From Amycolatopsis deserti (GTDB lineage Bacteria; Actinomycetota; Actinomycetes; Mycobacteriales; Pseudonocardiaceae), in the NCBI RefSeq assembly GCF_014653945.1, contig NZ_BNAU01000013.1, positions 1 to 64,000 of the forward strand: a DNA stretch of 64,000 nt. Direction: 5' to 3'. Position 1 is the first letter of the stretch, and each line of letters starts with the position of its first letter. Both the position numbers and the translations under genes were made by a program. Shown one piece after another: positions 15,441 to 58,517 of this stretch. The notes below the pieces were generated by a model. The model searched no databases and had not been told where the DNA came from. It saw nothing but the letters and a program-made list of their open reading frames with translations.

Positions 15441-18754
<3,314 letters not shown>

Positions 18755-38942: not shown

Positions 38943-39929
38943 ATGGCGATGACCGCCGCCGTGAAGGACGAGCTCAGCAGGCTGCAGATCACGAAGATCG
39001 GGCCGCGCCGGTCCGAAGTCGCGTCGATGCTGCGCTTCGCCGGTGGCCTGCACATCGTGGGGGGACGGGTGGTGGTGGAGGCCGAACTCGACACGGGTTC
39101 GGTCGCGCGGCGCCTGCGCAAGGAGATCCACGAGCTGTACGGCCACCATTCGGACGTGCACGTGCTGTCCGCGGGCGGGCTGCGCAAGACGACGAGGTAC
39201 ATCGTCCGGGTGGTTCAGGACGGGGAGAGCCTGGCCCGGCAGACGGGCCTGATCGACCAGCGGGGCCGTCCGGTGCGGGGTCTGCCGGCCGCGGTGGTGT
39301 CCGGCGGGATCGCCGACGCCGAGGCCGCGTGGCGGGGTGCGTTCCTGGCGCACGGTTCGCTGACCGAGCCCGGCCGGTCGTCTTCGCTGGAGGTCACCTG
39401 CCCCGGGCCGGAGGCCGCGCTGGCGCTGGTGGGGGCGGCCCGGCGGATGGGCATCCAGGCGAAGTCGCGTGAGGTGCGCGGGGCCGACCGGGTGGTGGTC
39501 CGCGACGGCGACGCCATCGGTGCGCTGCTGACCCGCCTGGGCGCGCACGCGAGCGTCCTGCAGTGGGAGGAGCGCCGGATGCGGCGCGAGGTCCGCGCGA
39601 CGGCGAACCGCCTGGCCAACTTCGACGACGCGAACCTGCGCCGGAGCGCCCGGGCAGCGGTCGCGGCGGCCGCCAGGGTGGAACGAGCGCTGGACATCCT
39701 GGCCGACACCGCACCCGAGCACCTGCTCGCCGCCGGACGGTTGAGGCTGGAGAACCGTCAGGCGTCCCTGGAGGAGCTGGGCCAGCTGGCCGACCCGCCG
39801 ATGACGAAGGACGCGGTGGCCGGAAGGATCCGAAGGCTCCTGGCGATGGCCGACAAGCGGGCGAAGGAACTGAACATCCCGGACACCGAAAGCGCCGTCA
39901 CCCCGGAAATGCTCGAAGAAAGCGTCTAA
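38943..39929 (+). CDS. whiA: Sporulation/cell-division regulator WhiA
   Basis: A 328-residue transcription factor that works with WhiB to trigger sporulation septation in Streptomyces. The N-terminal two-thirds has the homing-endonuclease (LAGLIDADG-derived) fold: [39 protein letters not shown] and [20 protein letters not shown]. The C-terminal helix-turn-helix is in [20 protein letters not shown], followed by a basic helix. ATG 38943 follows GGGAGGGG. It is the last gene of the uvrC operon; large palindromes follow it. Confidence 0.94.
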
Positions 39930-45163: not shown

Positions 45164-45865
45164 TCAGGTGGCGTCGTGGAACACCAGGCCCAGGGTGTGG
45201 CGGATGCCGGTGCGCACGGTGCTCACGCCGTGCCGCACCGGCGCCGCCGACCAGCCGCGGGTCGAGCGCACCGGGCGGTCCCGCGTGGTGAAGATCAGCG
45301 CGTGACCCTGCGGCAGCTGGGTGACCGTGCCGCGGGACTGGGCCCGCGGCCGCTGCTCGACCAGCAGGAACTCGCCGCCGGTGTGGTCGGCGTCGGGCAC
45401 GTCGAGCCCGATCACGACCTGCAGCGGGAACACCAGCTCGCCGTAGAGGTCGCGGTGCAGCGCGTTCCAGTCGCCGGCCCGGTAGCGCAGCAGGATCGGC
45501 GTCGACCGGGTCTGGCCGGCGCGGTGGCACCGGTCGAGCCAGGTCTCCAGGTCGTCCGGCCAGGGCGCGTCCCAGCCGAGCTTGGCGGCCCAGTCGCGGG
45601 CGATCGGCAGCAGGTGCGGGTAGAACGCCGCGCGCAGGCGGGCGACCGGCTCGGGCAGCGGGTAGCCGAAGTAGCGGTACTGCCCGGACCCGAACCGGAA
45701 GCGCGCCATGTCGATGGTGGACCGGAACCGGCTCACGTCGTCGTACAGCGCGGACAGCTCACCGCACTCGCGCGCGCTCAGGATCGGCGGCGTGAGGGCG
45801 CAGCCGGTGTCGTTCAGTTCTTCGGTGAGGGCCGGCCAGTCCAGGGCCGCGACATCCGCGATCAC
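45164..45865 (-). CDS. 2-oxoglutarate/Fe(II)-dependent dioxygenase family protein
   Basis: A 233-residue predicted non-haem iron oxygenase. The HxD iron motif is in NALHRDLYGELVFPLQVVIG, the distal histidine is in PVRHGVSTVRTGIRHTLGLV and a nearby arginine would bind 2-oxoglutarate. FGSGQYRYFGYPLPEPVARL is typical of the PF09859-type proteins. The substrate is unknown; relation to AlkB-type repair enzymes has been proposed for this family. The start is GTG 45865. It is convergent with gpgS, whose stop is 4 bp away. Confidence 0.75.
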   Translation of the reverse strand: MIADVAALDWPALTEELNDTGCALTPPILSARECGELSALYDDVSRFRSTIDMARFRFGSGQYRYFGYPLPEPVARLRAAFYPHLLPIARDWAAKLGWDAPWPDDLETWLDRCHRAGQTRSTPILLRYRAGDWNALHRDLYGELVFPLQVVIGLDVPDADHTGGEFLLVEQRPRAQSRGTVTQLPQGHALIFTTRDRPVRSTRGWSAAPVRHGVSTVRTGIRHTLGLVFHDAT

Positions 45866-46911: not shown

Positions 46912-48390
46912 GTGCGTGACTCGGACCTGATCAGCGGGGGGCTGGTGGACGAGGGCCTGGCCCGGCGGCTCAAGGCGCTCGCCTGCACCGCGCCCCTGCA
47001 CGACCTGGACGCGCGCAAGTCCAAGCTCGACTGGGCCGACGCGACCGTCTACCAGATGGCCGAGATCGCGCTGCACACGATCGACCTGGTCACCATCGCG
47101 ATGGACTTCGACACCGGCGCCAACCACGACGACGTCGTCCGGCGCCTGCAGCCGTTCATCGCCGCGCAGGCCCCGCGCCGCCCGGCCGAGGAGCACCTGC
47201 GCGTCGCGCGCTGGGTGCTGGACAACCTGATCAACGTCGGCACCACCGACCGCGGCTTCCGGCGCGTCTACGGCAGCCTGGACTCCAACGGCACCTACCG
47301 GCGCCGCGCGTTCGACTTCAAGCTGCTCGTCGAGCTGGCCGCCCCGGACGGCGAGGTGTACCTGCGGGCCAGCGACGAGGCGATCAACGTGCTGGTCGGC
47401 GCGCTGGACACGGACGTGGAGTCCGCGCAGATCGCGGCCGAGGTGAAGCTGGAGAACCTGATCAGCCGCGGCCGCCTCGCCGACGCCAAGCTCGCCGCCG
47501 AGCAGGCCCGCTACCGCACCGTCCAGTACGGCGAGACGCTGCGCGCCAAGCTGGACGCGACCCGCCGCGACGTGCGCGCGGTGGACTGGGACCGCGAGAT
47601 GCCCGAGCTGCTGGACTCCGCGCTGACCCACATCGAGGCCCGCTTCCGCGCGGAGAACGCGATCCTGCGCAACATCACCGCCGCCCGCGACGAGGCCGAG
47701 GACGTCGACCACAAGCGCCGCGCCGCCGAGCTGGTCGACATCGTCAGCGACTGCATCAGCCGCCACACCCAGCTGCAGGCCCGGCTGCAGGCCGCCGGTG
47801 CGGTGTTCCGCGCCGAGCAGGACCGGCAGCAGTTCTCCGGCCCGCCGCAGCGCGCGACCGTCGACCTGTTCGGCCAGATCCTGATGCCCGCGCTGGAGCT
47901 GCCGATCGCCGACGCCGTGTCGCCGCTGGAGTCGTACTTCCACGCCTCCGCGGGCTTGATCGTGCCGACCGTGCCCGCGCTGCCGTCGCTGGTCTCGCTG
48001 CTGCTGCGGCCCGCGCCCGAGCGCGACAAGGTGGTCGGCGAGGTGCCCGAGCCGGAGCTCGTCCCGCCGGAGAGCCTGGACCACTACAGTGACGAGCAGT
48101 GGCGGCGGGCCGACGAGCTGCTGGACCTGCCGGAGGTGCCGCGGCGGCTGTCCGGCGTGCTGGCCGAGGCCCGCGAGCTGGACCCGGAGCTGCCGCGTCT
48201 GGTGGCGCTGCGGGCGCTGCACTCCTACAGTCCCGAGGTGGGCGCCGCCGTCCGGCAGGGGGACGACCGCGCGCTGCTCGCCGTCGACGACGGCACGCTG
48301 CTGGAGGACGCCGAGTTCGGGGGAGCCGACCTGTTGCTCAGCACGGCGCGGCTGGAACGCGACGAGGAAGACGAAGAGGGGGCGGCATGA
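46912..48390 (+). CDS. Kleisin-like subunit of an SMC-type complex (MksF/JetA-like)
   Basis: A 492-residue, largely helical, acidic protein not recognised by clear named motifs. Its size, position and gene order match the kleisin of MksBEF/MukBEF and Wadjet (JetA) systems. It has an N-terminal helical region, a long central helical block rich in Arg/Glu (about 180-290, including IEARFRAENAILRNITAARD) and a likely winged-helix C-terminal part (about 390-480). It ends in an acidic tail (RDEEDEEGAA). The 4-bp overlap with the next gene (ATGA) implies stoichiometric production. The assignment rests on context and architecture, not on catalytic residues. Confidence 0.6.
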   Translation: MRDSDLISGGLVDEGLARRLKALACTAPLHDLDARKSKLDWADATVYQMAEIALHTIDLVTIAMDFDTGANHDDVVRRLQPFIAAQAPRRPAEEHLRVARWVLDNLINVGTTDRGFRRVYGSLDSNGTYRRRAFDFKLLVELAAPDGEVYLRASDEAINVLVGALDTDVESAQIAAEVKLENLISRGRLADAKLAAEQARYRTVQYGETLRAKLDATRRDVRAVDWDREMPELLDSALTHIEARFRAENAILRNITAARDEAEDVDHKRRAAELVDIVSDCISRHTQLQARLQAAGAVFRAEQDRQQFSGPPQRATVDLFGQILMPALELPIADAVSPLESYFHASAGLIVPTVPALPSLVSLLLRPAPERDKVVGEVPEPELVPPESLDHYSDEQWRRADELLDLPEVPRRLSGVLAEARELDPELPRLVALRALHSYSPEVGAAVRQGDDRALLAVDDGTLLEDAEFGGADLLLSTARLERDEEDEEGAA

Positions 48391-49187
48391 CGCGTCCGGT
48401 CACGACCGGCGACGCCGAGAACGCGGCACGGCTGATCTCGTTCGGCATGCGGCCCAAGCACCTGCCCTCGCGCGACGTCGTCTACGCCGACCTGGTCCGC
48501 CGCTACGGCGAGGACAGCGCGTTCAAGCAGCTGACCAACTCGGTCGCCGCCGGCCTCGGACTGATGGTGCTCGACGTGAGCCACCAGGCCGGCGCGGTGC
48601 TGGCCGCCACCGACGAGTCGGTGTTCGAGGTCAAGATGGACAGCTACGCGCGGCAGAGCAAGATCCGCGAGCGCCGCGACACCGAGAAGGTGCTGCACGG
48701 CCTCGTCCACCTCGCCACCGCCGCCCTGGGCTACCCGCGCCCGGACGATCTGGCCAACGACACCTACATCGGCCGCGTCAGCGTCGACCAGGTCGACGGC
48801 GTGGTGCGCGAGGCGTGCCGGATCCTCGACGAGCGCGCCGCCAAGGCCGAGGCCAACAACGACCCGCTGTCCGACTCGCCGGAGCTGGAACAGGCCTGGC
48901 GCGCCTACGCCCGCCGCCCGGAGGCGGCGGCCACCAAGGACGGACGGCTGGCCTCGGACACCACGCGCGGCATGGTGTCGCGGGCCCTGCGGTTCCTGGC
49001 CGACCAGGGGTTCCTGGTGCAGGTCAGCGGCGAGCAGGGCGGCACCTACCGGACCACGCCGCGCTACCAGGTGCAGGTGCGGGAACTGGCCGCCGACAGC
49101 GCGTTCGAGGAGCTGCTGGCCCTCGGCGTGGTCGCGGTCTCCGACGGCGAGGGCACGCTGCGCCCGTCCATTTCGGACACTCTGTAG
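48387..49187 (+). CDS. KITE-like winged-helix subunit of an SMC-type complex (MksE/JetB-like)
   Basis: A 266-residue soluble protein. Early on it carries VVYADLVRRYGEDSAFKQLT and near the C-terminus a winged helix, SDTTRGMVSRALRFLADQGF followed by LVQVSGEQGGTYRTTPRY. Two such modules are expected in the MukE/MksE/JetB (KITE) class that clamps the kleisin. Name-level homology is not certain. It starts within the kleisin stop and precedes the ATPase by 10 bp with GGGGGAG (49187-49193) as RBS. Confidence 0.6.
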   Translation: MTRPVTTGDAENAARLISFGMRPKHLPSRDVVYADLVRRYGEDSAFKQLTNSVAAGLGLMVLDVSHQAGAVLAATDESVFEVKMDSYARQSKIRERRDTEKVLHGLVHLATAALGYPRPDDLANDTYIGRVSVDQVDGVVREACRILDERAAKAEANNDPLSDSPELEQAWRAYARRPEAAATKDGRLASDTTRGMVSRALRFLADQGFLVQVSGEQGGTYRTTPRYQVQVRELAADSAFEELLALGVVAVSDGEGTLRPSISDTL

Positions 49188-49197
49188 GGGGAGATCG

Positions 49198-52100
49198 GTG
49201 TACGAGCTTTCGCGGGTGCGCCTGCACTCCGTCGGGCCGGCGGGCGCGCGCTACCAGAACGTGCTGCTGGACTTCAGCGGCGTCGGCCCGCTGGTGAAGG
49301 CGCCGGCGCAGGACGCGCTGTTCACCGCCGGGATCCACTCCGCGGACGGCAGCCTGCCGCGGCGGCCGTCCCCGGCCAGCGTGCTGTTCCTGGAGAACGG
49401 CGGCGGCAAGTCCGTGCTGATCAAGCTGATCTTCTCGGTCATGCTGCCCGGCCGCCGCCAGGTGGTGGGCACGACCAGCACGCGCGTGCTGGAGAAGTTC
49501 GTGATGGCCAAGGACGTCGCGCACGTCGTCCTGGAGTGGCAGCACACCGAGACCGGGCAGCGGGTGATCACCGGCAAGGTGTCGGAGTGGCGCGGGCACG
49601 TGGTCTCCAACGACCCGGCGAACCTGGTCGACTCGTGGTACTGCTTCCGGCCCACCGCCGCGCTGGGCCTGGAGTCGCTGCCGTTCACCGAGGACGGCCG
49701 ACTGCTGACCATGTCCGGGTTCGCCGAGCAGCTGGAGCGCGCGCACAAGGCCGAGCCGGAGCTGGAGCTGTTCACCACCCGCCGCCACCACGAGTGGACC
49801 GAGCGGCTGGACACCCTCGGCCTGGACACCGAGCTGTTCCGCTACCAGCGCGCGATGAACGCCGGCGAGGGTGAGGCGGCCGACGCGTTCGCCTTCACCT
49901 CCGACGAGGCGTTCGTGGAGTTCCTGCTGCGCGCGGTGATCCCCGAGGACGACCCGAAGGACCTGGCCGAGGTCGTGCAGACCTACGCGCACAACCTGGG
50001 GCAGCGCGGCGAGCTGATGTCCGAACGCGACTTCGTGGCCGGGGCGCTGGACCTGCTGACGCCGCTCACCGAGGAGGAGTCGCTCGCCGCCGCGTCCCGC
50101 AAGCTCGCCGCGGTCGCCCGCGAGGAGGCCCGCGCGCTGGCCGGGTCGGTCATCGCCCGGCACGAGCTGGAGGCCGAGCGCCTCGACGGGTTGAAGTCCT
50201 ATGTGGACGAAACCCGGGACGCGGAGAAGCTGGCCGAAGGGGATCACCGGCGCCGCAACGCGGTCGTCACCGAGCTGCGCCGCGTGGTCGGCGAGATGCG
50301 GCTGGCCGACGCGACCGCGGAGAAGACGCGGATCGACGACGAGCTGAAGAAGGCTCGCGAGACCGCGGCCGCGTGGCGCGAGACCGGCACCGTGCTCGCC
50401 CACGTCAACGCCGCGCGCAAGGCGACCGATATCCGCAAGCTGGTCGGCGACCGCGAGCAGAGCGCGAAACCGGCCCTGGAGGCCAAGAACGCGGCCGCCA
50501 CCGCGCTCGCCCGCGGGCTGCTGGCGCTGGCGCGGGAAGCCGAGGAGCAGGCGCAGGCCGCCGAGGCCCGCGCCGAAACCGCCCGCACCGCCGCCGCGGC
50601 CGCGCAGGACCAAAGGGACGCGGCCACCGCGACCGCCGCCGGGCACCGCGCCGAGCTGGGCCAGCTGACCCGCCGCATCGAGGAGGTGCGCACGCAGGTG
50701 CAGCAGGCCGTCCGCGACGGGCTGCTCACCGACGGCACACAGGTCGCCGCGGCCGCGCAGGAGGCGCGCACCCGGGGCGAAAACGCGACCACCGAGCTCG
50801 CCGCGCGGGAGAGCGAACTGGAGGGGGTCGCCGAGGACCACGCCCAGGCCCAGGCCGCCCTGCACGCCGCGCAGCAGCGGGCCGCCACCGCGCAGTCCCG
50901 GGCCGCGCACGCGGCGGAGGAGCTGGCGAAGGCGCACCGGCGGTCGGACAGCCTCGCCGCGCACCCGCGGCTGCTGGAGCTGCTCGGGGGCGACAACGTC
51001 CAGCTGGAGACCGACACGCCCGCGCTGCTGACGCGGCTGCGCGAGGCCCGCGCGGCCGCCGAGCGCGAGCAGACCGCGCTGCGCATGGAGGAGTCGGTCG
51101 ACGAGCGGGCGCTGGCCGCGCTCGGATCCGGTGGCCTGCTGCCCGCGCCGCCGGAGGTCCAGTCCGCGTTGGACGTTCTCGAGGCGGCCGGGATCACCGC
51201 GTGGTCGGGCTGGCGTTATCTGTCCACGATGGACGCGCCGGGCCGGGAGCGGGTGCTGCGGGACCTGCCGCACCTGCTCGGCGGCGTGCTGATCAACGAC
51301 CCGGCCCAGCTGGACCGGGCCCGCCAGGTGCTCGCCGACGCCAAGCTCCTGCCGAGCGTGGTGCTGCCGGTCGGCACCACCCAGGCGGTGCGGGCCGACG
51401 GTGCGGCGCCGGGCGTGGACTTCCTGGTCCCGCCGAACCCGGCGATGTACGACGAGGAAGCGGCCGACACCGAGCGCCAGGCCATCGCCGCCCGGCACGC
51501 CCGCCGCCAGAAGCAGCTCGAGGCGCTGGCCGGCGCGATCGGCGACGACGCGGCGCTGGAGTGGAAGCTCACCACCTGGCGCGAGGACTACCCGCCCGGC
51601 GCGCTGGCGACCCTCGCCGAGGAGGCCGAGGCCGCGGCCGGCGAGCAGACCGAGGCGGACGCCGCCGTGGCCGCGCAGGAACGCGCGGTGGCCGACCTGG
51701 CCGCGCGCCGGGCCCGGCTGCGCGAGGCGATCCCGGCGTTGCGAGCCGAGGCGCGCGAGAGCGAGGAACGCGCCCGCAAACTGGCCGAGCTGGCCGAACG
51801 GGTCGCGTTGATTCCACAGTGGACTGAGACCGTCGAGCACGCGCAGGAGATCGTCACCCGCGCCGAAGCCGAGGCGGAGCAGGCGGCTTCGCGCGCGGCC
51901 CGGCTGCGGGAGGAGGCCGCCGAGGAGCAGCGCACCGCCGACGGCCACCGCCGCACGGTCACCCACGCGCGCGCCGAGCTGGCCGAGGTGCCCGGCGGGG
52001 GATCGGTGTCCGAGAACGAGCCGGTGCCCGCCGAACCGGTCGACGCGCTGCGCCGGGCGTTCGCCGCGGCCAGCGACGCCTACGCCCGCGTCGAGGTGGG

Positions 52101-53661
52101 CAGCGACCTGCGGGCCGAGCTGGACCAGGCGGAGAACGCGGAGTCCGCGGCGCGGGCGGCGCTCGAGGCGCTGGAGCCGGCGGTCCGGGAACAGGCCGCG
52201 CGCCTGCTGGAGACACCGGACGGCTCCGACGCGGCCACCCGTGCCGCCGCGCTGGCGCGTGCCGGGCGCACGGTGTCCGCGCTGGAGGCCGAGCACAGCG
52301 AGGCGATCGGCCTGGTCGCGACCTGCAAGGCCGAGCTGGACCAGCTGCCGAAGCAGAACGCGTCGCTGGAGGTCCGGCCGCGCGACGTCGAGCACGGCCG
52401 GGAGCTGATCGACGAAGCCATCGAGGAAGCCTCGGTGGCGGCCCGCGCCCTGGAGGAGGCGCAGGCGCGGCGCGCGGAGGCCGAGCGCACCCTGGAGGCG
52501 GCCACCGCGTCGGCGGCCGGGTTCCGGATGCTCGCCGAGTCGATGGCGCACCTGGCCCCCGAGGGCGAGCCGGAGAGCGTGTTCGACGGCGACGTGGAGG
52601 CCGCGCAGGCCCGTTACCGCAAGCTGAACACGACGCTGACCGACGCCGAGGCCGCGGTCGACGGCGCGGAGAAGCGGGTGCGGGCGGCGGCGGACGCGCT
52701 GGCCCAGTACGCCACCGACAAGCGGTTCGAGAAGCTGACCAGCCCGGTGCGGCAGCAGATCGTGTCGGTGCGGCGGGACAGCCTGCCCTCGCACGCGCGG
52801 GAGTGGTCGGCCGCGCTGAAGCCGCGGCTGCGCACGCTGACCGACGACCTGGCGCAGATCGACCGGCACCGGTCCGGGATCGTGGCCCGGTTGCAGGGCA
52901 TGGTCGAGGGCGCGCTGCGGATGCTGCGGTCGGCGCAGCGGCTGTCGCGGCTGCCGGAGGGGCTCGGCGGCTGGTCGGGGCAGGAGTTCCTGCGGATCCG
53001 GTTCGGCGATCCGGAGGAGCCGCAGCTGTCCGAGGCGCTCGGGCAGGTCGTCGACGAGGCGGCGCTCGGCAAGACCAGCGACGGCCGCGACGTCAAGCGG
53101 GACGGGATGTCGCTGGTGCTGCGCGGCGTGCGGGCGGCGGTGCCCAAGGGGTTCCGGGTGGACATCCTCAAACCGGACTCGGTGCTGCGCACGGAACGCC
53201 AGCGGGTGTCGGAGATCCGGGACGTGTTCTCCGGCGGCCAGCAGCTGACCGCGGCGATCATCCTGTACTGCACGCTGGCGGCGCTGCGGGCGAACAACCG
53301 CGGCATGGTGCGCAACCGGCACTCCGGGGTGCTGTTCCTGGACAACCCGATCGGCCGCGCGTCCGCCGGGTACCTGCTGGAGCTGCAGCGGGTGGTCGCG
53401 GAGGCGCTCGGGGTGCAGCTGATCTACACGACGGGCCTGTTCGACGCCGGGGCGCTCTCGGAGTTCCCGCTGATCGTGCGCCTGCGCAACGACGCGGACC
53501 TGCGGGCGGGCCGCAAGTACCTCTCCGTCGACGCGACGATCCGCAACCACCTCGACGACCTCGGCGAACCGGACGGAACGGCGCGGATCTCCGCGACGCG
53601 GCTGTTCACGAAGCCGGGGGAGCAGGCGGCCGGAGCAGGGGAGATGACCGGAAGGCCTTAG
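49198..53661 (+). CDS. SMC-like coiled-coil ATPase (MukB/MksB/JetC-type)
   Basis: A 1487-residue P-loop ATPase with SMC layout. The N-terminal head has Walker A ENGGGKS (66-72). Long coiled coils rich in Ala/Glu/Arg run from about 320 to 630. A compact Gly/Pro-containing hinge-like domain follows (about 640-750, SGWRYLSTMDAPGRERVLRD). A second coiled region runs to about 1230, and the C-terminal head carries signature motif VFSGGQQLT (1343-1351) and Walker B VLFLDN (1378-1383). A post-Walker-B histidine or glutamate typical of ABC ATPases is replaced by NPIG. It would form a DNA-loop-extruding or clamp complex with the two upstream proteins. No nuclease gene follows. Confidence 0.85.
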   Translation: MYELSRVRLHSVGPAGARYQNVLLDFSGVGPLVKAPAQDALFTAGIHSADGSLPRRPSPASVLFLENGGGKSVLIKLIFSVMLPGRRQVVGTTSTRVLEKFVMAKDVAHVVLEWQHTETGQRVITGKVSEWRGHVVSNDPANLVDSWYCFRPTAALGLESLPFTEDGRLLTMSGFAEQLERAHKAEPELELFTTRRHHEWTERLDTLGLDTELFRYQRAMNAGEGEAADAFAFTSDEAFVEFLLRAVIPEDDPKDLAEVVQTYAHNLGQRGELMSERDFVAGALDLLTPLTEEESLAAASRKLAAVAREEARALAGSVIARHELEAERLDGLKSYVDETRDAEKLAEGDHRRRNAVVTELRRVVGEMRLADATAEKTRIDDELKKARETAAAWRETGTVLAHVNAARKATDIRKLVGDREQSAKPALEAKNAAATALARGLLALAREAEEQAQAAEARAETARTAAAAAQDQRDAATATAAGHRAELGQLTRRIEEVRTQVQQAVRDGLLTDGTQVAAAAQEARTRGENATTELAARESELEGVAEDHAQAQAALHAAQQRAATAQSRAAHAAEELAKAHRRSDSLAAHPRLLELLGGDNVQLETDTPALLTRLREARAAAEREQTALRMEESVDERALAALGSGGLLPAPPEVQSALDVLEAAGITAWSGWRYLSTMDAPGRERVLRDLPHLLGGVLINDPAQLDRARQVLADAKLLPSVVLPVGTTQAVRADGAAPGVDFLVPPNPAMYDEEAADTERQAIAARHARRQKQLEALAGAIGDDAALEWKLTTWREDYPPGALATLAEEAEAAAGEQTEADAAVAAQERAVADLAARRARLREAIPALRAEARESEERARKLAELAERVALIPQWTETVEHAQEIVTRAEAEAEQAASRAARLREEAAEEQRTADGHRRTVTHARAELAEVPGGGSVSENEPVPAEPVDALRRAFAAASDAYARVEVGSDLRAELDQAENAESAARAALEALEPAVREQAARLLETPDGSDAATRAAALARAGRTVSALEAEHSEAIGLVATCKAELDQLPKQNASLEVRPRDVEHGRELIDEAIEEASVAARALEEAQARRAEAERTLEAATASAAGFRMLAESMAHLAPEGEPESVFDGDVEAAQARYRKLNTTLTDAEAAVDGAEKRVRAAADALAQYATDKRFEKLTSPVRQQIVSVRRDSLPSHAREWSAALKPRLRTLTDDLAQIDRHRSGIVARLQGMVEGALRMLRSAQRLSRLPEGLGGWSGQEFLRIRFGDPEEPQLSEALGQVVDEAALGKTSDGRDVKRDGMSLVLRGVRAAVPKGFRVDILKPDSVLRTERQRVSEIRDVFSGGQQLTAAIILYCTLAALRANNRGMVRNRHSGVLFLDNPIGRASAGYLLELQRVVAEALGVQLIYTTGLFDAGALSEFPLIVRLRNDADLRAGRKYLSVDATIRNHLDDLGEPDGTARISATRLFTKPGEQAAGAGEMTGRP

Positions 53662-56196: not shown

Positions 56197-57363
56197 GTGA
56201 ACAGGAAACTGGGGAACCACCAGCGCCGCGCCCGGCTGGTTGTCCGGCACCACCTCGCGGCGCCCGCCGACGGGCCGGAACAGGTCGCCGAGAGCCTGGT
56301 CGCGCTGCACGCGACCGATCCGGCCACCGTCCACCTCTCGGTGCTGGCCCGCTCGGCGGCGAGCACCACCGACGTCGAACGCGCGCTCTACGACGACCGC
56401 ACCCTGGTGCGGATGCTCGGCATGCGGCGCACGATGTTCGTCGTCCCGCGGGGGCTCGTGCCGGTCGTCCAGGCCGCCTGCGCCGACGACATCGCCATCC
56501 GCGAGCGCAAGCAGCTGATCAAGCACCTGGCCACCGCCGACCTCGAGGGCGACCTCGACGCCTGGCTCGCCGAGGTCGAGGAGGGCGCCCACGCCGCACT
56601 CCGGGCGCGGGAACCGGCGTTCGCCCAGCAGGTCGCGGACGGCGAGCCCCGCCTGCGCACCGAGATCGTCATGGCCGCGGGCAAACCGTACGAAGCACGC
56701 GGCTACATCACCAACCGCGTGCTGTTCCTGCTCGCCGCCCGGGGCCGGATCGTGCGCGGACGTCCCCGCGGCACCTGGCTGTCCACCCAGTACGCGTGGT
56801 CCACCACGGAAACCTGGCTGCCCGGGCTCGAACCGGTGGACGCCGAGACCGCCCGGGTGGAGCTGGCCCGCCGCTGGCTGCGCGCCTTCGGCCCGGCTCC
56901 GGTCGCCGACCTGAAGTGGTGGACCGGCTGGACCGCCGGGCAGGTCAAGAAGACGCTCACCGCGATCGGCCCGGTGGAGGTCGATCTCGACGACGGCCCG
57001 GGCATCGCGCTGCCCGGCGACGACGAGCCGGTCCCCGAGCCCGGTCCCGTCGCCGCGCTGCTGCCCGCCCTGGACCCGACCCCGATGGGCTGGCAGGACC
57101 GGAGCTGGTTCCTCGGCGCGCACCAGGCGCGGCTGTTCGACCGCACCGGCAACATCGGCCCGACCGTCTGGTGGGACGGCCGCATCGTCGGCGGGTGGGC
57201 CCAGCGGCCGGACGGGGACATCGCGATCCGTCTGCTGGAGGACATCGGCGCCGACGGAACGACGGCCGTCGACGCCGCCGCCGAACGGTTGCACGGCCGC
57301 CTGGGCGGGGTCACCGTCATACCGAAATTCCGGACGCCCGTCGAGCGAGATCTGTCATCTTGA
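56197..57363 (+). CDS. Winged-helix DNA-binding protein, AlkZ/YcaQ (HTH_42) superfamily
   Basis: A 388-residue protein of the family that includes the interstrand-crosslink DNA glycosylases AlkZ and YcaQ/AlkX. Typical elements are ESLVALHATDPATVHLSVLA near the N-terminus, LGMRRTMFVVPR, YITNRVLFLLAARGRIVRGR and LLPALDPTPMGWQDRSWFLG near the C-terminus. Where the characterised enzymes have a Gln-x-Asp or Gln-x-Gln motif, this one has LHATD, so glycosylase activity is uncertain. It starts with GTG 56197, 32 bp after the membrane protein gene. Confidence 0.75.
   Translation: MNRKLGNHQRRARLVVRHHLAAPADGPEQVAESLVALHATDPATVHLSVLARSAASTTDVERALYDDRTLVRMLGMRRTMFVVPRGLVPVVQAACADDIAIRERKQLIKHLATADLEGDLDAWLAEVEEGAHAALRAREPAFAQQVADGEPRLRTEIVMAAGKPYEARGYITNRVLFLLAARGRIVRGRPRGTWLSTQYAWSTTETWLPGLEPVDAETARVELARRWLRAFGPAPVADLKWWTGWTAGQVKKTLTAIGPVEVDLDDGPGIALPGDDEPVPEPGPVAALLPALDPTPMGWQDRSWFLGAHQARLFDRTGNIGPTVWWDGRIVGGWAQRPDGDIAIRLLEDIGADGTTAVDAAAERLHGRLGGVTVIPKFRTPVERDLSS

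Positions 57364-57404: not shown

Positions 57405-58517
<1,113 letters not shown>

Follow-up and report, generated by a model that had tools for sequence, protein, structure and literature searches.

Genes and motifs of the operon

The window, a 64,000-nucleotide stretch of Amycolatopsis deserti DNA, contains three forward-strand genes between whiA (38943-39929) and gap (57465-58517), two flanking identities that are backed by Pfam. The promoter-proximal jetA-like gene (46912..48390, GTG start) encodes a kleisin of the MukF/JetA kind with 492 residues, as assigned by PADLOC profile and fold. It is followed by a jetB-like gene (48387..49187, ATG start) for a 266-residue protein of the KITE (MukE/JetB-like) type, assigned by its predicted fold, and by a jetC-like gene (49198..53661, GTG start), whose 1487-residue product is an SMC ATPase according to its PADLOC profile. 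The start of the jetB-like gene overlaps the jetA-like stop by 4 bases, and 10 bases separate the jetB-like stop from the jetC-like start; in all these respects, coordinates, lengths, spacing and flanks, the first-pass annotation was accurate. A promoter and terminator scan found none. Repeats form short families that are located mainly within jetC.

The 492-residue protein matches the PADLOC JetA3 profile PDLC00567 over residues 10-489 (E 2.1e-209), and the 1487-residue protein matches JetC3 (PDLC00588) over residues 1-1479 (E 0, 1956 bits). The sequence match of the middle protein is weak and its predicted fold is KITE-like (JetB/MukE). Curated Pfam and NCBIfam models of MukB, MukE and MukF gave no match to the window proteins at E<=1. 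The initial statement that none of the three has an obvious match therefore holds for Pfam and NCBIfam, but not for PADLOC, whose JetA3 and JetC3 profiles are covered almost entirely. Since no true relatives emerged when solved structures were searched by sequence, using profiles of JetC, JetA and JetB or the JetD from locus L112, we relied on fold comparison. The AlphaFold2 model of the JetA-like protein (pLDDT 78.7, pTM 0.41) has the MukBEF chain 9gm7_C as its top Foldseek match (E 1.7e-4), and MukBEF and MukE-MukF entries are the top structure matches of the predicted subunit folds. The predicted folds thus bear out the earlier description of a kleisin-KITE-SMC operon without a Toprim nuclease, which is also the subunit composition of MukBEF and MksBEF.

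We identify the operon as jetABC from the type III Wadjet lineage, with jetD absent. A survey for a fourth gene, as proposed at first pass, did find JetD-bearing relatives: locus L112 in Amycolatopsis marina and one on a Rhodococcus plasmid. Four-gene relatives such as L112 show 61-63% JetA identity. Because these relatives exist and the kleisin and the ATPase match PADLOC type III families at near full length, the proposal of an undescribed system had to be abandoned.

JetC retains Walker A (NGGGKS, residues 67-72, 49396..49413), the ABC signature (SGGQQ, residues 1345-1349, 53230..53244) and Walker B (LFLDNP, residues 1379-1384, 53332..53349), all on the forward strand. The ABC/SMC ATPase set noted at the outset is therefore present up to the Walker B Asp, but the next residue is Asn and the catalytic Glu is absent. 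The same Asn occupies this position in 146 of the 147 type III JetC rows. As JetD-bearing copies are among them, it characterises type III JetC as a family, irrespective of JetD, and loss of the catalytic Glu is ruled out as a hallmark of the JetD-less state. Type I JetC, judged on one Frankiaceae protein, has Asp-Glu at Walker B. The substitution hints at hydrolysis that is slow or otherwise altered.

Search for the JetD nuclease

When two type III JetD proteins were searched against the window, the best match had an E of 0.05 and fell within the AlkZ-like gene, on the wrong strand. This agrees with the first reading that no JetD-like gene adjoins the operon, and rules out a split or overlooked JetD nearby. 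In the 7.74 Mb genome, neither PF09983 nor PDLC00590 found a match at E<=1, nor did PDLC00594 at E<=1e-5, a profile that in the same search does detect JetD in other Amycolatopsis genomes. A JetD alignment run against the genome at E<=10, without a positive control, likewise gave no match, a result that alone proves little. When five neighbouring genes were scanned with PADLOC, four had no match and a LysE-like one matched BnzA weakly (E 0.035). For a nuclease encoded elsewhere, which had been considered from the sequence, no candidate of the JetD kind was located in the genome. Canonical Smc is also encoded there.

Distribution, phylogeny and selection

jetC3 occurs in 19/19 Amycolatopsis and 118/121 Streptomyces genomes; in the 14 of these with a clear JetD3 match, JetD adjoins an extra copy and never the core copy. 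Separately, three genomes (G437, G478, G485) have a JetD3 match with no jetC3 match listed alongside. Across Pseudonocardiaceae, 136 of 200 genomes have no jetC3 match in a count that scored two candidates per genome and can miss extra jetC copies, so jetABC is dispensable in much of this family. Downstream DNA of 4.5 kb or more is available for 54 named Pseudonocardiaceae loci; gap comes after the operon in 49 of these, and what had been taken for an accessory segment is a conserved chromosomal locus. The DNA retrieved around 13 extra copies contained none of the neighbour genes sought. No match was found in 50,697 phage records, and five in 72,556 plasmid records. JetD is kept in some close relatives (for example L163, L173 and L182), and the A. 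marina genome contains both the JetD-bearing and the JetD-less state. At the JetD-less locus L110, the next gene is that of a candidate defence ATPase (PADLOC PDC-S01), in keeping with a role in defence.

In jetABC trees, the JetD-less copies form two large groups amid JetD-bearing ones. The 147-row tree omitted 17 partial or split loci, four duplicates, rows without A, B and C, and rows with a short JetA or JetC, while a 50-row tree consists of rows that we selected. The Pseudonocardiaceae group has 83 rows, at least 11 of which are the same contigs under two identifiers, and hence represents about 72 loci. Fourteen JetD-less pairs give dN/dS values of 0-0.36, showing that JetD-less jetABC is under purifying selection. 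Open frames and ATPase motifs are retained; a few loci (L109, L204) look broken or split, and jetA-jetB coupling is looser in Streptomyces. An alignment of JetA, JetB and JetC revealed no signature of a lost JetD interface apart from one JetC position (residue 1058 in the window protein).

Only two of the 61 named core-group loci carry JetD. In one of them, L090 of A. rifamycinica, a 1082-base stretch with JetD takes the place of 17 bases at the jetC terminus, the former jetC end persists behind JetD, and this JetD retains the Toprim Glu and Asp-x-Asp. The flank comparison favours a JetD insertion into a JetD-less operon, which we consider probable, over an ancestral survivor. Deletion in the relatives of L090, although it keeps some residual probability, is disfavoured because the other 13 rows of its tree group are JetD-less and JetC ends of a similar kind are also seen outside the group, in loci that have no JetD (L156, L157, L158). 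For the second locus, L111, the data fit gain as well as retention of JetD. At L104/L183 an open frame had suggested a JetC-JetD fusion; as the JetC end sits in a different frame (G383), a frameshift is more likely.

A proposed chromosomal role for JetABC and its alternatives

With its A-B-C gene order and full-length JetA3 and JetC3 profile matches, the operon resembles type III Wadjet, from which it differs in having no JetD beside it or detected in the genome, and in being fixed at one chromosomal place where type III systems are patchy. It shares with MksBEF of Pseudomonas aeruginosa an SMC, a kleisin and a KITE subunit without a nuclease, in a host that, like Pseudomonas, also has Smc. 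What sets it apart is its membership of the type III profile families and the Walker B Asn of its ATPase. MukBEF of enterobacteria has like subunit folds and no JetD, but according to excerpts of two papers it substitutes for Smc in its hosts (PMC10586767), which is present here, and MukB has the catalytic Glu E1407 (PMC7617805) where this JetC has Asn. Corynebacterium glutamicum MksBEFG, a type I Wadjet, has the same core in an actinobacterium; it differs in the Asp-Glu of type I JetC, as judged on the Frankiaceae protein, in having the nuclease MksG and in controlling plasmids (PMC10123090, excerpt).

Loss of JetD is already known in general within the Wadjet group. A review proposes that MukBEF and MksBEF descend from Wadjet systems that lost JetD as they switched from defence to a chromosomal function, as is likely for the chromosome-organising MksBEF of P. 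aeruginosa (PMC10586767, excerpt), and several further members of the group also lack JetD (PMC7617805, excerpt). Our literature search found no report of a JetD-less state for the present lineage, which may be in the operon list of PMC7617805, no paper treating Walker B of type III JetC, and a single paper mentioning both Wadjet and Amycolatopsis, on Rhodococcus.

The nuclease is missing here and in most related bacteria that were surveyed, in a near-permanent chromosomal gene set, so the complex probably has a different job now. We favour, with a probability of roughly 0.55, a type III jetABC without jetD that has been retained as a vertically inherited chromosomal operon with an accessory role in chromosome organisation (or DNA repair). 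JetA, JetB and JetC would assemble into the usual kleisin-KITE-SMC complex, load onto DNA and go through an ATP-driven cycle of loop entrapment or extrusion that, without JetD, would end without a cut. Such an ending would make an accessory SMC complex beside Smc the most likely outcome, one that by analogy with P. aeruginosa MksBEF may serve chromosome organisation (or DNA repair) rather than plasmid destruction. A JetC without catalytic Glu would not suit a vigorous motor, which counts against this explanation, as do the many Pseudonocardiaceae genomes with no jetC3 match, the close relatives with JetD and the defence ATPase gene at L110. The wider proposal, that type III Wadjet was disarmed on two or more occasions (in Streptomyces with Frankiaceae, and in Pseudonocardiaceae) and co-opted to serve as a chromosomal SMC complex, can be re-armed by JetD insertion and interconverts between both states at one locus, is put forward tentatively.

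Even with no JetD of its own, the complex might still act against plasmids: it could compact, silence or mis-segregate them, or recruit an unlinked nuclease. Ancestry in a defence system, the common JetD-bearing sister copies and the near absence of a lost JetD-contact signature speak for this, yet we judge it unlikely: all four Jet subunits are required against plasmids in Bacillus subtilis (PMC10586767, excerpt), neither the genome searches nor the five neighbours offered a nuclease candidate, and the chromosomal operon is found in nearly all Streptomyces, in contrast to the extra copies, which are patchy. Alternatively, JetABC could have a low-cost function at present and owe its retention to the regain of JetD under plasmid threat, as the probable insertion at L090 with its intact Toprim residues and the near lack of JetABC changes tied to JetD loss would allow. 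Since selection cannot act for future use, a present function would be required even then, and with JetD in just two of 61 core-group loci, one of them ambiguous, we regard this as improbable. That the operon is a decaying Wadjet remnant, as nuclease loss, the few broken loci and the relaxed jetA-jetB coupling in Streptomyces could imply, is largely refuted by the low dN/dS and is further opposed by the intact frames and ATPase motifs; its probability is very small.

Type III is another Wadjet type in which JetD-bearing and JetD-less states co-exist, in living species, within the A. marina genome and with a probable re-insertion, so that the step from defence to housekeeping becomes directly testable. 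What is automatically annotated as 'Wadjet' in Streptomyces and Amycolatopsis may in many cases be a non-cutting complex, and a second SMC complex, in addition to Smc, may take part in the chromosome biology of these antibiotic producers. If the wider proposal of repeated disarming is true, nearly every Streptomyces and Amycolatopsis has an unstudied second condensin-like complex.

Identity of the operon and its missing nuclease

The three-gene layout of the first-pass annotation is borne out, with the jetA-like (46912-48390), jetB-like (48387-49187) and jetC-like (49198-53661) genes all on the + strand and joined by a 4-base overlap and then a 10-base gap. The jetA-like product matches the PADLOC type III profile JetA3 (PDLC00567, E 2.1e-209, residues 10-489) and the jetC-like product matches JetC3 (PDLC00588, 1956 bits, residues 1-1479), while the JetB3 match of the jetB-like product is weak (E 0.021). 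No informative Pfam or NCBIfam match was obtained for the three proteins at E<=1, the best being that of the ATPase coiled coil to an SMC model (24 bits, cut-off 567). Amycolatopsis tucumanensis is the closest named relative, with identities of 99% for JetA, 100% for JetB and 97% for JetC.

The proposed absence of a JetD nuclease extends to the whole host genome (24 contigs, 7.74 Mb, completeness 99.95%), which also encodes a canonical Smc (982 bits). Four genome-wide searches for JetD returned no match: the profiles PF09983 and PDLC00590 (both at E<=1), the profile PDLC00594 (E<=1e-5) and an 18-row JetD alignment as query (E<=10). The PDLC00594 search is the strongest of these negatives, because that run did detect JetD elsewhere in the genus.

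JetC retains Walker A and the ABC signature. The Walker B Asp (window 53332-53349) is followed by Asn in 146 of 147 aligned rows, JetD-bearing and JetD-less alike; the one exceptional row is most likely locus L104, which is frame-shifted and whose DNA encodes LDNP. This Asp-Asn contrasts with the Asp-Glu of one type I JetC, encoded in a Frankiaceae genome and matching solved JetC chains at E 1.8e-47. For the Lamassu ATPase, PMC10586767 describes a change from Glu to Gln and states that hydrolysis is slowed by changes of this kind. In L104 and L183 the jetC frame seems to continue into jetD, yet the JetC end sits in another frame (G383), and this run-on is likely a frameshift in metagenome assembly.

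Gain and loss of JetD

The proposed survey of homologous operons for a fourth gene located jetD beside jetC in 7 of the 73 named loci with at least 1.5 kb downstream (80 named loci in all). Core jetC was present in 19/19 genomes of the genus (1883-1965 bits, profile search). PDLC00594 matched in five of these, weakly and partially in G320 and next to a second, divergent jetC in the other four. At least 118 of 121 Streptomyces genomes have a jetC3 match (among the matches listed) and 12 a PDLC00594 match, two weak and partial and ten beside an extra copy; each of these ten also has another jetC of core pattern. JetD adjoins jetC in all 14 extra copies from the genus and Streptomyces (L025, L140-L152), in one of which, L142, jetA was not detected. 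It is found in none of the 26 Streptomyces core loci with at least 1.5 kb downstream (27 examined). G281, a Streptomyces genome, has a JetD-bearing copy near each chromosome end (L151 and one at the other end), probably within terminal inverted repeats.

Across 200 Pseudonocardiaceae genomes, jetC3 was found in 64 and JetD3 in 22; JetD lies behind a high-scoring jetC in several (for example G435, G377, G346 and G462), and therefore JetD-bearing and JetD-less states are interleaved there. G437, G478 and G485 have JetD3 matches without a listed jetC3 match alongside, reflecting either a divergent jetC or a solitary JetD. JetA3 occurred in 23 of 197 genomes sampled from the class. A. marina has both forms on separate contigs, L055 being the core copy without JetD and L112 the one with four genes; a Rhodococcus plasmid encodes a JetA relative (55%), two hypothetical genes and then a gene annotated JetD. 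In JetD-less L110 of Cellulomonas timonensis, the next gene (L110:16903-18192) encodes an AAA/DUF4143 ATPase matching the PADLOC candidate PDC-S01 (E 2.7e-76).

A FastTree phylogeny of JetA, JetB and JetC heads (147 rows including 32 that carry JetD; certain loci are represented twice) shows JetD-bearing deep branches and two large JetD-less groups: Streptomyces plus Frankiaceae (30/30 JetD-less) and 83 Pseudonocardiaceae rows, two with JetD. Small separate losses fall at L110, L181, L190 and L191. IQ-TREE on 50 chosen rows gave 7 state changes, or 6 counting well-supported branches only, against an average of 13.6 for shuffled labels; it separates Streptomyces and Frankiaceae in an unresolved relation. 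Local placements in this tree are uncertain because of long branches such as L163, L147 and L148. These trees firmly indicate that JetD came and went several times; the number of losses is not firm, owing to the Frankiaceae/Streptomyces relation and the long branches.

One probable gain can be traced in A. rifamycinica. The DNA of its locus L090 follows JetD-less L085 as far as 16704 and resumes the match at 17787; the intervening 1082 bases, comprising a new jetC end and JetD, replace 17 bases of L085. The 32 bases ending jetC in L085 have a counterpart behind JetD in L090, and the break is identical against L079 and L087. The L090 JetD retains the Toprim Glu and Asp-x-Asp, and its highest identity to other JetDs in the set is 42%. 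JetD was probably inserted anew here into a JetD-less operon; insertion is favoured over deletion in all relatives because similar JetC ends occur in JetD-less rows outside the L090 group.

Selection and chromosomal place

Pairwise dN/dS values (simple counting on high-GC genes, only the sign being firm) for 11 Pseudonocardiaceae JetD-less pairs were 0.03-0.17 for JetA, 0-0.09 for JetB and 0.06-0.14 for JetC. Two Streptomyces JetD-less pairs gave 0.07-0.25, one Frankiaceae JetD-less pair 0.13-0.36 and one mixed pair 0.13-0.31; four JetD-bearing pairs gave 0.08-0.27 for JetA to JetC and 0.20-0.42 for JetD. On this sign, the operon is maintained and is not decaying.

Neighbourhoods were counted in 61 named Pseudonocardiaceae loci, 54 with at least 4.5 kb downstream. 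The gap gene lies downstream in 49/54, the remaining five ending 4.7-4.8 kb past jetC; an AlkZ-like gene lies downstream in 44/54 and a PNPOx-like gene upstream in 50/60. Of the 26 Streptomyces core loci besides L035, 20 share the membrane-protein gene that lies behind jetC in L035. None of the eight core-neighbour genes searched for turned up near 13 extra copies, in fetched stretches that are short for most of them. In the window, two DNA-repair-like genes border the operon, one on each side, Oxygenase-NA (45164-45865, - strand; PF09859, E 3.5e-82) and an AlkZ-like DNA glycosylase (56197-57363, + strand; PF06224, E 2.2e-70), and may hint at a role in repair. In Streptomyces, 18-365 bases separate jetA from jetB in 25 measured core copies (among L026-L038, L114-L124 and L197-L204); in most other copies the two genes overlap or abut.

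Function of a JetD-less complex

MukBEF and several further Wadjet-group members lack the nuclease, according to PMC7617805, and PMC10586767 describes types II and III as having received little study. In PMC10482375 Wadjet is reported to be enriched in Actinobacteria and, within Streptomyces, towards chromosome ends; its main text does not use the word JetD. In the text available of PMC13121528, which deals with SMC in Streptomyces, MksB turns up a single time, within a reference, and Wadjet is not mentioned. We found no published description of the JetD-less type III lineage in the literature reachable, which included few subscription papers or preprints and no supplements.

By homology, ATP binding and head engagement would be expected of JetABC, as would entrapment of DNA and perhaps loop extrusion. 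The Wadjet cycle ends in cleavage by JetD, a step that would be missing from this complex. The main rival explanation is that the operon would control plasmids without cleaving them; a third option is that it could be a scaffold open to re-arming. Because the motor is under selection, the cutter is absent, a normal Smc is present and the chromosomal place is fixed, the reading that best fits is that the operon would encode an accessory chromosome complex like MksBEF.
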